Shown here piece by piece: positions 23,158 through 27,476 of a stretch of 36,577 nt of DNA. Positions within the stretch are counted from its first letter, which is position 1. Every line of letters starts with the position of its first letter. The notes under the pieces are model-generated. The model made no database searches. It had not been told where the DNA came from and saw only the letters and a program-made list of their open reading frames with translations. The position numbers and the translations under genes are program-made. Source of the stretch: Actinomycetota bacterium (lineage in GTDB: Bacteria > Actinomycetota > CADDZG01 > WHSQ01); assembly GCA_902812355.1 (NCBI GenBank), contig CADDZG010000001.1, positions 1-36,577 on the forward strand, read 5' to 3'.

Positions 23158-23658
23158 GTGGACGGACGTGCGCTCCGTCGCATGTTGTCGGGTGTCGTCG
23201 CCGCAGTCGCCGTCGCCACCACCTCCGTGGCCGCCGTGGTCCCGGCGACCACCGCCGGAGCCGGCGACTACCGGTTCAAGCGCACCGAGAAGTGCATGAT
23301 GCGCAAGATCAACCACGCCCGGGCGAATCACGGCCTGCGGCGTCTCCGCTGGGACAAGCAGCTCGGCTACGTGGGGCGTCGCCATGCCCGCGCCATGGCC
23401 GATGCCCGTGCGGTATGGGACGACCCCGACCTCGGCAACAAGGTCACGCGCTGGAGGAGCGTGGGGGAGAACTCTGGGATGGCCGGTGGATGCAAGAAGC
23501 TCTTCTGGGCGTTCATGCGCTCGCCCTCGCACCGCGCCAACATCCTCGGCCACTACCGCTACGTCGGGGTCGGCACCGACCGGGCCGGAGGCAGTCTCTA
23601 CGCCGCCCAGGTATTCGAATACCGGCGGGACCCCGGCAACGTTTGGCGCTACCCCTGA
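23158..23658 (+). CDS. Secreted CAP/SCP-domain protein (first copy)
   Basis: 166-aa exported protein with a signal peptide (about 1-33, basic start then a hydrophobic run to PATTAGAG) and a CAP domain (about 45-155). CAP motifs include INHARANHGLRRLRW, RHARAM, SVGENSG and SPSHRANILGHYRYVGVG, which carry the His and Glu cavity residues. Function of bacterial CAP proteins is largely unknown. The GTG at 23158 has AGGGGG 7 nt upstream. A second copy lies at 26967-27476 on the other strand. Confidence 0.86.
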   Translation: MDGRALRRMLSGVVAAVAVATTSVAAVVPATTAGAGDYRFKRTEKCMMRKINHARANHGLRRLRWDKQLGYVGRRHARAMADARAVWDDPDLGNKVTRWRSVGENSGMAGGCKKLFWAFMRSPSHRANILGHYRYVGVGTDRAGGSLYAAQVFEYRRDPGNVWRYP

Positions 23659-24874: not shown

Positions 24875-26047
24875 TCACCCGAAGAGGTTGGAGATCGCGA
24901 CGATCGTAGCCGGTAGGACGAACAAGCCCACGGTGAACATCGCCAAGCGGGTGCGGCTCCGCAGCATCTGACGCTGGAAGCGCCAGATGCCCGAGCGCAG
25001 CGGGCGGTAGGCGAACGCCATCAGAGCGAGGCCGACCGCGGTCATGGACACGATCTCCGCCACCATGATCAGCACCGCCGCGGCCGAGTGCACGAGAAAC
25101 GCGATCACGAGCTTGTCGCCGAGCGTGCCGATGTTGGCGCCGATGATGTAGGGGAGGATCTCGTCACGCTTGAGGTAGCCCTTGGCCACCAGCGGCACCA
25201 GCGCGGTCACGGCTACCGACACCGACATCGTCGCGAGGGTGAAGACGATCCCGAGCCCGAACATCGGCCACTTGCGCCTCACCCACGCGAGGCGGGAGCC
25301 GGCGAGATCACGCTCGTCGATGTCGGGGACGAGGGCGTCAAACAGCTTGAACGACACGACGATCAGCCCCAGGCCCCCGCAGAACAACAGCCACCCGGGC
25401 CACGACGCGACCGCGTCGAGCACGGGCCCGTACACGAGGTCGAGGAGGTTGCCGAAGGAGGCCGGGAACATGAGGTGGATGTGGTGGAACGGGGGCCACG
25501 CCAGCAGGCCGAGACCGAGCAGGGTGCCGGGGACGTAGATCGCGGCCGCGGCGAGCAGGGCGATCAGCGCCGTCGACACCGGCGCCATGCGCTTGCCCTC
25601 ACCGCCGCGCAGCGCATACACCACCGCGACCAGCAGGACGATGAAGGCGGCCCCGAGCCGTGACCCGGTGACCATGGTGAAGCCCTGGGCGGTGCTGATC
25701 GTGCCCGCAGCCACCAGGGTCAGGGCGCTCGCCGCGATCGGCGCTCCCGACAGCACGATCATCGCCCCGATCCATCCCAGGCCGAGGGTCGACCCGGCGT
25801 TGCGCACCAGCCACGTGCCCCGATGCAGGAGGTCGAGCTGCCCGGCCCCCTCCTTCATGACCTGCAACGCGCCGACGAACAGCAGCAGAGCCACGAGCGC
25901 TTCGAACGTCACCCACGCGGCGTGGCGGGCCCGTGCGGCCCGTCCGGGCGCCGGCGCAGCGGTTTCGTCCCGTGCCGTGTCCGGCGGGGACGGCTGCGCG
26001 CGGCGCACGGGTGCGTCGGCCTGGGGGCCGGGTCGTTGGTACGCCAT
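24875..26047 (-). CDS. Na+/phosphate-cotransporter-like membrane protein
   Basis: 390-aa membrane protein with about eight helices after a disordered Pro/Ala/Arg N-terminus (1-42). Two inverted repeats of the Na_Pi_cotrans type are visible: SGAPIAASALTLVAAGTIST ending GSRLGA (about 101-134), and SVSVAVTALVPLVAKGYLKR ending in the hallmark GANIGT. The QSSS motifs are replaced, so phosphate as substrate is uncertain. The ATG at 26047 has AAGGGGG directly upstream. It is probably co-transcribed with the 42-codon gene before it (67-bp gap) and the RHH gene after it. Confidence 0.75.
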   Translation of the reverse strand: MAYQRPGPQADAPVRRAQPSPPDTARDETAAPAPGRAARARHAAWVTFEALVALLLFVGALQVMKEGAGQLDLLHRGTWLVRNAGSTLGLGWIGAMIVLSGAPIAASALTLVAAGTISTAQGFTMVTGSRLGAAFIVLLVAVVYALRGGEGKRMAPVSTALIALLAAAAIYVPGTLLGLGLLAWPPFHHIHLMFPASFGNLLDLVYGPVLDAVASWPGWLLFCGGLGLIVVSFKLFDALVPDIDERDLAGSRLAWVRRKWPMFGLGIVFTLATMSVSVAVTALVPLVAKGYLKRDEILPYIIGANIGTLGDKLVIAFLVHSAAAVLIMVAEIVSMTAVGLALMAFAYRPLRSGIWRFQRQMLRSRTRLAMFTVGLFVLPATIVAISNLFG

Positions 26048-26062
26048 GCCCCCTTCCTACAG

Positions 26063-26078
26063 CACTCCTACCGGAGTG
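26063..26078. repeat. Short hairpin between the microprotein gene and the Na/Pi-like gene
   Basis: CACTCC-TACC-GGAGTG, a perfect 6-bp stem with a 4-nt loop, 15 bp before the Na/Pi-like start. No U-run follows, so read-through is likely. Confidence 0.4.
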
Positions 26079-26114: not shown

Positions 26115-26243
26115 TCAGCGGGAGCGCGAGCGCAGGTTGCGGCGGGCCTTGACCGAGCGCCAGCGACGCTGACGGGCCGCCTCGCGCCGCAGATCGTGCA
26201 GCCGCTCGTGGGCGATGTCGCCCCACAGGCTGGGATTGACCAC
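26115..26243 (-). CDS. 42-aa Arg-rich microprotein
   Basis: Short ORF of 42 codons with an excellent SD, GGAGGAG 6 nt before a GTG start (within AAAGGAGGAG at 26259-26250). The peptide begins VNPSLWGDIAHERLHDLRRE, a plausible amphipathic helix, and continues as an Arg-rich stretch that ends LRSRSR (15 Arg in 42 residues). It matches no family I know; nucleic-acid or acidic-membrane binding is likely from charge alone. A good -35/-10 pair lies upstream and overlaps a MarR-type operator. A longer ORF in another frame over the same DNA (26057-26302) has no SD and is rejected. Confidence 0.62.
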   Translation of the reverse strand: MVNPSLWGDIAHERLHDLRREAARQRRWRSVKARRNLRSRSR

Positions 26244-26286
26244 GAGCCTCTCCTCCTTTCCGCTTTAGCTAGGCATACTCCAGATA

Positions 26287-26315
26287 AAGATACTTGATAC
26301 ATCGCTTGTAACCAA
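26287..26315 (-). promoter_or_regulatory. Promoter of the microprotein operon
   Basis: Minus strand: TTGGTT (26315-26310), 17-bp spacer, TATCTT (26292-26287). Expected start near 26280 gives a leader of about 37 nt with the SD. The -35 lies inside the CTTG-N4-CAAG operator, so repression by a bound MarR protein would be direct. Confidence 0.5.
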
Positions 26316-26316
26316 G
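26305..26316. promoter_or_regulatory. MarR-type operator 1, CTTG-TAAC-CAAG
   Basis: Perfect 4+4 palindrome with 4-bp spacer. It is embedded in a larger imperfect inverted repeat: AAAGATACTTG at 26286-26296 against CAAGCATCTTT at 26313-26323, 10 of 11 matching. It lies in the AT-rich divergent promoter of the marR gene. Confidence 0.6.
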
Positions 26317-26334
26317 CATCTTTAAGCGGTATTC

Positions 26335-26346
26335 CTTGCGAACAAG
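26335..26346. promoter_or_regulatory. MarR-type operator 2, CTTG-CGAA-CAAG
   Basis: Second copy of the same palindrome with a different spacer. Its centre is exactly 30 bp from that of operator 1, about three helical turns, so both sites face the same side of the DNA. Confidence 0.6.
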
Positions 26347-26376
26347 GGGTATCGGCAGGATGATGAGCCCCGGGCC

Positions 26377-26940
26377 ATGGCGGACCGGCCGAGGCAGGGA
26401 CGCGGGGGAGCGGTGGCGACCGGCGACGGCAAGGATCAGGTCGACATCAACGCAGAGCGCGCGGCGCAGCGCTGGGCGGGCATCGATCCCGCCGTCGAGG
26501 CGATCGTGAACCGCATCTCCAAGACCGCCCGCTACCTCGACCGCATGCTGGGCGAGACCGCCGCGCGCGAGGGCCTCAACGCGAGCGAGTACCGCCTGCT
26601 GGTGACGCTGTGGAAGTCGGGGCCCACCTCACCGGGGGACCTCGGCAAGAGGTTGTTGGTGTCCTCGGGGGTCATGACCAACCGGCTCGATCGGCTTGAG
26701 GAGAGGGGGTTCGTGGCACGGGCCCCTCACCCCTCGGACCGTCGCGGCATCCTCGTGAGCCTCACCGACACCGGGCTTGAGGTCCTGTCGCGCATGATCG
26801 AACGCCAGGCCCGGCGCGAGACGGAGCTGCTGGCGGCGCTGCAGCCGGACGAGCGTGCGGAGCTCAACGCTCTGCTGCGGCGGCTGATGACGTCCTTCGA
26901 TCCGACTATCGCGGTGGAAGAGGGCGGCCTCAGCTCGTGA
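26377..26940 (+). CDS. MarR-family transcriptional regulator
   Basis: 187-aa winged-helix regulator. The core shows ASEYRLLVTLWKSGPTSPGD, then LGKRLLVSSGVMTNRLDRLE (recognition helix) and the wing ERGFVARAPHPSDRRGILVS with the conserved DRR. An N-terminal extension of about 35 residues precedes the first dimer helix. The ATG at 26377 lacks an SD; a GTG at 26413 with GGGGGAG close upstream is the alternative. It is divergent from the microprotein operon and sits beside two matched palindromes, so autoregulation and control of that operon are likely. No cysteine sensor is visible. Confidence 0.9.
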   Translation: MADRPRQGRGGAVATGDGKDQVDINAERAAQRWAGIDPAVEAIVNRISKTARYLDRMLGETAAREGLNASEYRLLVTLWKSGPTSPGDLGKRLLVSSGVMTNRLDRLEERGFVARAPHPSDRRGILVSLTDTGLEVLSRMIERQARRETELLAALQPDERAELNALLRRLMTSFDPTIAVEEGGLSS

Positions 26941-26966: not shown

Positions 26967-27476
26967 TCAGGAGCACACCCGGGGCATGTCCAGCCGCGTA
27001 CCGGGATCGCGGCTGCCCTCGAACTGGATCGTCACCCACACAGTGCCGCCGACCTTCTTAACGCCCACGCCGACGTAGTGGTAGCTCTTGCCGACGATGT
27101 TCGCGTAGTGCTCGGGGGAGTGGAGGAAGGCCTTGTACAGGGCGTCGACCCCACCCCCATAGCCGACGTTCTCGCCGATGGAGGTCCAGCGGGTGACCCA
27201 GCTCTCGAACTGCGACAGGGAGGTGTGGAAGAGGTAGCCCTTACGCACCATCCGACGGTTGTGGTAGCGCGCGGTGTAGCCGAGCTGGGGATCGAGGTGG
27301 AGCGGCCGGAGCCCGCGATAGCTGCGCGTGTGATTGATCTTGGCGGCGAAGAGTTTCTCCGCGGGCTTGAAGCGGAAGCACCCGGAGGCCTGCGCCGGGT
27401 CCACCTGGGACACCGGTGCGAGCGTGGCGACGATCACGGCCGCGGCCAGCAGCAACGGCAGGCGCCTGGCATCCAT
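26967..27476 (-). CDS. Secreted CAP/SCP-domain protein (second copy)
   Basis: 169-aa exported protein: signal peptide (about 1-31, LPLLLAAAVIVATLAPVSQV) and a CAP domain with INHTRSYRGLRPLHLDPQLG, RYHNRRM, SIGENVGYGGG and SPEHYANIVGKSYHYVGVG. It shares domain order with the first copy at 23158 but differs much in sequence. It is convergent with marR and lies downstream of amt on the same strand, separated by strong hairpins. Role unknown. Confidence 0.86.
   Translation of the reverse strand: MDARRLPLLLAAAVIVATLAPVSQVDPAQASGCFRFKPAEKLFAAKINHTRSYRGLRPLHLDPQLGYTARYHNRRMVRKGYLFHTSLSQFESWVTRWTSIGENVGYGGGVDALYKAFLHSPEHYANIVGKSYHYVGVGVKKVGGTVWVTIQFEGSRDPGTRLDMPRVCS

Follow-up and report, generated by a model that had tools for sequence, protein, structure and literature searches.

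Two CTTG-N4-CAAG palindromes between a marR gene and a small divergent open reading frame (ORF) are likely to belong to an autoregulatory operator array, on which the adjacent PecS/TamR-like MarR protein is predicted from sequence comparison to repress both genes from units set on a 15-bp pitch. The window, by which we mean the whole 36,577-nucleotide stretch of DNA analysed, contains both 12-mers, CTTGTAACCAAG (site 1) and CTTGCGAACAAG (site 2), offset by 30 bp as a sequence-only reading had noticed, and they lie in the AT-rich patch that it described (GC 45% at 26250–26349, against about 70% around). That reading took the offset as three helical turns. At 10.5 bp per turn, 30 bp makes 2.86 turns; it is instead two units of 15 bp, and we have therefore dropped the helical-turn explanation.

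Table 1. Features of the divergent marR promoter region. Unit scores are matches to the family palindrome CTTGANNTCAAG.
Feature	Position	Strand	Details
Na+/Pi cotransporter-like gene	24875..26047	-	67 bp past the small ORF
Divergent 42-codon ORF	26115..26243	-	GTG start at 26243; GGAAAGGAGG before start; GC3 0.88
Operator unit	26278..26289		CTCCAGATAAAG, 7/10; 27 bp left of site 1; L009 counterpart CTTGAGGTAAAG, 9/10
Large inverted repeat	26285..26324		TAAAGATACTTG-N16-CAAGCATCTTTA; 12-nt arms 26285-26296 and 26313-26324, 11/12 complementary, 16 nt between
Presumed leftward -10, TATCTT	26287..26292	-	17 bp from TTGGTT; placed by comparison with relatives
Half unit	26293..26304		CTTGATACATCG, 6/10 (left half 5/5, right 1/5); 15 bp from 26278, 12 bp from site 1
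Operator unit, site 1	26305..26316		CTTGTAACCAAG, 8/10; overlaps presumed leftward -35 (TTGGTT, 26315-26310, -)
Half unit	26320..26331		CTTTAAGCGGTA, 4/10 (left half 4/5, right 0/5); +15, midway between sites 1 and 2
Operator unit, site 2	26335..26346		CTTGCGAACAAG, 8/10; directly precedes presumed rightward -10
Presumed rightward -10, TATCGG	26350..26355	+	15 bp after the site-2 CTTG; placed by eye
marR	26413..26940	+	GTG start, GGGGGAG before; alternative upstream in-frame ATG at 26377 possible

The regulator is a member of the MarR family (PF01047, E 1.4e-17, 63.8 bits against a cut-off of 24.6); no NCBIfam equivalog matched it at its cut-off. Within the family, conserved Trp/Asp/Arg ligand residues mark the urate-responsive (UrtR) subgroup. 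The solved structures nearest to it by sequence are 8ylh and 8ylf, for which we found no paper. The divergent 42-codon ORF has no Pfam or NCBIfam match and is possibly, if not demonstrably, co-transcribed with the Na+/Pi cotransporter-like gene that follows it. Small ORFs occupy this place elsewhere too: in ten loci (the window, L046, L047, L008, L009, L062–L065 and L067, the L-numbers being labels for the marR loci of relatives), marR diverges from an ORF of 36–71 codons that is often Arg-rich, and in three relatives the small ORF had no Pfam match. As to likeness between them, 12 of 300 shuffles did as well as the comparison of the window ORF with that of L046, and 172 of 300 did as well as that with L062; clear similarity is confined to L062/L064/L067 and L008/L009, besides the near-identical L046/L047. 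Across groups only position is common, and the ORFs may represent an unnamed small-protein partner.

Relatives of the MarR protein are about 32–45% identical to it, the best 42–45%, and searches in the genus, family, order and class returned few close ones. A contig scan for MarR proteins yielded mostly distant sequences, of which only L011 and L020 were counted and 18 of 20 were excluded because they were too distant or belonged to other phyla; paralogs in the organism's own genome (L002–L007) stand outside all counts. Removal of six duplicates from 81 upstream regions left 75 unique ones, the window among them. A palindrome, CTTGANNTCAAG, is common to these regions. First noticed by eye in 19 loci and then counted, it is matched at 8/10 or better in 61 of the 75, against 1 of 75 stretches within marR and 2 of 73 taken from farther upstream; the other 14 upstream regions hold no site at this threshold. 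CTTG-N4-CAAG is therefore the core of a family operator, a palindrome within the 12–18 bp range that is conserved in the marR promoters of relatives. The family motif recurs upstream of related marR genes, which supports the earlier prediction that the divergent promoter of marR would be controlled through MarR operators. Sites 1 and 2 each match CTTGANNTCAAG at 8/10, both missing its inner A..T (CTTGt..cCAAG and CTTGc..aCAAG). The conservation check suggested with that proposal came out widely in favour of the motif and in part in favour of the pair, 30-bp pairs being present in 18 of 74 relatives. The aligned CAAG of site 1 is retained in L008, L009, L046 and L047, where site 2 has no counterpart at the aligned place; its counterpart, CTTGACATGGAG, is found at +30 in L062, L063 and L065.

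The spacing of these sites follows a regular step. Counting pairs in which both members matched CTTGANNTCAAG at 7/10 or better, we found 15-bp pairs in 30 of the 75 regions and 30-bp pairs in 19, with 35 bp next (8 regions) and a median of 1 for other lags; both spacings were missing from 40 regions. Lag 12 occurred in one region and lag 18 in none, which excludes a codon rhythm as the cause. In the first 23 regions (the window and 22 relatives), 15-bp pairs occurred 11 times, compared with a shuffle mean of 0.02 and a maximum of 2 at any lag in 300 shuffles. The 58 loci fetched later gave a 15-bp pair in 26 and a 30-bp pair in 15 (shuffle means 0.04 and 0.08, any-lag maximum 3), most of them being close relatives of the first set, two duplicating first-set genes and four duplicating one another. 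Truly new protein clusters among the 58 number two, one positive and one negative: the L062 cluster, whose five loci all have 30-bp pairs and three of which have 15-bp pairs, and the single locus L072, with neither.

Redundancy among the regions bears on these counts. With proteins clustered at 55% identity (15 clusters), lag 15 is present in 7 clusters and lag 30 in 5. A stricter filter, by BLAST on the upstream DNA, left nine clusters and no 15-bp pair at 7/10, a result that counts against the pitch at this threshold; lowering the threshold to 6/10 gave lag 15 in five of the same nine clusters (shuffle mean 0.29). The DNA filter had chained nearly all regions together, and protein clusters were used instead. 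Over 25 pairs, that of the window among them and duplicates retained, the match to the motif midway between the members of a 30-bp pair averages 6.96/10; at the remaining offsets between 3 and 27 the averages run from 0.9 to 4.3. In an autocorrelation free of any consensus, lag 15 was also highest, at 1.30 against an any-lag maximum of 0.99 in 200 shuffles, a signal confounded by coding rhythm; since multiples of 3 rise inside marR as well, through codon periodicity, we do not use it as main evidence.

In the window, units begin at 26278, 26293, 26305, 26320 and 26335, giving steps of 15, 12, 15 and 15 bp. The nearest layout is that of L062–L065. L062 reads CTTGATATCGAA ATA CTCGCACACGGA TTT CTTGATGTCAAG AGA CTTTAGAGAGAG ACG CTTGACATGGAG, which makes five units at 15-bp intervals, strong and weak in turn, and the arrays of L063 and L065 match it. 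The window half unit at 26320 compares with CTTTAGAGAGAG in L062 and CTTTAGTACGAG in L065. L008 and L009 share the 15-12-15 portion with the window, together with the N16 inverted repeat. At 26293–26316 the step is 12 bp and off the 15-bp pitch; L008 and L009 show the same break, and in L046/L047 the step is 13. Units 12 bp apart would lie on almost the same face of the DNA and should exclude one another.

The sequence-only reading had also put site 1 over the −35 of the leftward promoter and inside a larger inverted repeat. The repeat is real, although site 1 sits off-centre in it, with its right half belonging to the right arm. A sigma-70 consensus scan passed no promoter, so the leftward −35 rests on comparison with relatives: in four of nine examined, TTGACA or TTGACT precedes TATCTT by 17 or 18 bp at the place aligned with the window, whose own TTGGTT-N17-TATCTT agrees at 7 of 12 positions overall and is weak by consensus. 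On the rightward side, hexamers at the offset of TATCGG are TACCGT in L062, TACTGT in L063, TATCGT in L065 and TATGCT in L067; we recognised no −35 by eye upstream of TATCGG. The large inverted repeat is best read as a leftward promoter apparently overlaid on the operator.

We propose that MarR dimers would bind 12-bp units of CTTGANNTCAAG repeated every 15 bp. The strong sites at 26305 and 26335, 30 bp apart, would flank the half-site unit at 26320, and together with the third good unit, at 26278, they would be the first to be occupied by regulator dimers. The leftward −10 and −35, which would serve the small ORF, would lie under the dimers at 26278 and 26305, and a dimer at 26335 would abut the rightward −10 of marR. 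With both promoters covered or abutted in this way, ligand-free regulator would shut both and release by ligand would open both. At 10.5 bp per turn, neighbours on a 15-bp step would be turned about 154 degrees from one another, onto nearly opposite faces, so that adjacent dimers could share the DNA; the 12-bp step between 26293 and 26305 would probably produce a clash, making these two units likely alternatives. The sequences, how rare they are, the family motif and its pitch among relatives are observed; we infer binding by this MarR, repression, the promoter positions, ligand control and cooperativity.

The two palindromes might instead be independent MarR sites, one per promoter, with the 30 bp set by promoter geometry and carrying no meaning for contact between proteins, a reading that we take seriously while rather doubting it. 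Site 1 does overlap the leftward −35 and site 2 does abut the rightward −10; good units also stand 27 or 28 bp apart in L008, L009, L046 and L047, near the distances between promoter elements, 33 bp apart in L051 and L011, and 35 bp apart in several Tam-linked loci. Spacing dictated by promoters sits badly with the finding of 15-bp pairs in 7 of 15 protein clusters whose divergent genes differ, and with half-sites that persist at the midpoint. A reading in which the protein recognises the large inverted repeat, and not the CTTG-N4-CAAG units, is unlikely. Where marR faces a small divergent ORF, the repeat is the best conserved block, with an identical left arm and N16 in L009, N16 in L008 and N17 in L046/L047; its spacing fits the leftward −35 to −10 distance, however, which would account for the conservation, and it is absent from L062–L067 and from the Tam group, whose CTTGANNTCAAG units are plain.

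Chance palindromes in AT-rich promoter DNA are a highly improbable source of the pair. CTTG and CAAG are commoner in AT-rich patches, and a genome search found 14 CTTG-N4-CAAG sites in 2.43 Mb, against 26 for a reversed control pattern. The window pair is the only close pair among the 14, the remaining 12 sites lying on 12 other contigs in GC-rich (57–73%) stretches covered by long open frames. Shuffles of the whole window gave an expectation of 0.12 sites, with two or more in 1 of 100; among 5000 dinucleotide shuffles of the local 167-bp AT-rich sequence, 11 had one site and none had two or a 30-bp pair. Conservation of the motif in relatives argues further against chance.

A structural precedent for the 15-bp array comes from the crystal of Rv2887, a MarR-family protein of M. 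tuberculosis, with DNA. Two dimers are reported there to share 30 bp, each covering 15 bp and the two lying almost opposite one another on the helix, a layout of the kind proposed for the window; the Rv2887 target differs in being GC-rich and a poor palindrome read out indirectly. PecS operators, as given in excerpts of the published accounts, resemble the window in having a divergent marR-type gene and several AT-rich palindromes of the TATCTT...AAGATA kind: the V. vulnificus site is TATCTTTATATTAAGATA, with sites 57 bp apart, and A. fabrum pecS-pecM has two overlapping sites. The partner there is the pecM pump rather than a small ORF, and the same excerpts describe no regular 15-bp ladder. 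SCO3205, a MarR-family protein of S. coelicolor, has the consensus TTnAAnnnTCAA, of the same sequence type as the window sites, and its two sites in one intergenic region are reported as separate and non-overlapping, unlike the window array. SAV4189 is described as a MarR regulator with three palindromes in one promoter. MarR promoters with several palindromes were already known; a literature search for a 15-bp MarR ladder and for its palindrome, within partial journal coverage, turned up no paper in which such a ladder is named.

Divergent partners vary among the relatives. Beside the window marR there is no pecM-type efflux pump as in PecS systems; the 42-codon ORF and then the Na+/Pi cotransporter-like gene take that place. 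Transporter-like partners were found in L051, L053 and L011, and these we assume, from their sequences, to be of the EamA type. L051 and L011 carry two nearly perfect sites at 33 bp, not 30, and both adjoin their transporter-like genes. In a sister group (L053, L071, L083 and L089), where the divergent genes are transporter-like wherever one was found, palindromes of the CTCAACGTTGAA type replace CTTGANNTCAAG and the 15-bp tandem step is kept, as judged by eye. Loci resembling that of TamR of S. coelicolor (L052, L059, L060 and others) also carry the family motif, in many cases at 15-bp intervals; their divergent methyltransferase-like gene is presumably trans-aconitate methyltransferase-like and their marR relatives presumably TamR-like. 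L109, whose protein is TamR-like, has three units spaced by 15 bp. The window differs in that its protein is about 42% identical and its partner is not tam, no trans-aconitate methyltransferase gene lying within the window.

We tentatively suggest, thinking it somewhat likelier to need revision than to hold, a common operator grammar for PecS/TamR-like MarRs in the phylum: 15-bp units, full and half in alternation, would carry dimers on alternating faces as a short cooperative filament across both promoters, with array length and unit quality tuning repression and the pitch outlasting change in the half-sites. With structural precedent behind it, a constant step of 15 bp would aid the prediction of operators, and hence of regulons, across many genomes, and would account for ladder-like sites in what is a very common regulator family. 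For this organism it would mean that a regulator routinely controls itself along with a small gene. We regard the system as a mostly ordinary case of a bacterial regulator controlling its own gene, its layout being unusually regular and the pitch rule being the interesting part.

The window has two further features. A perfect 6-bp hairpin, CACTCC-TACC-GGAGTG, occupies 26063–26078, between the small ORF and the cotransporter-like gene, with no T run. Similar small proteins are encoded at 23158–23658 (+) and 26967–27476 (−); the second belongs to the CAP family (PF00188), and the first appears by eye to be its paralog.
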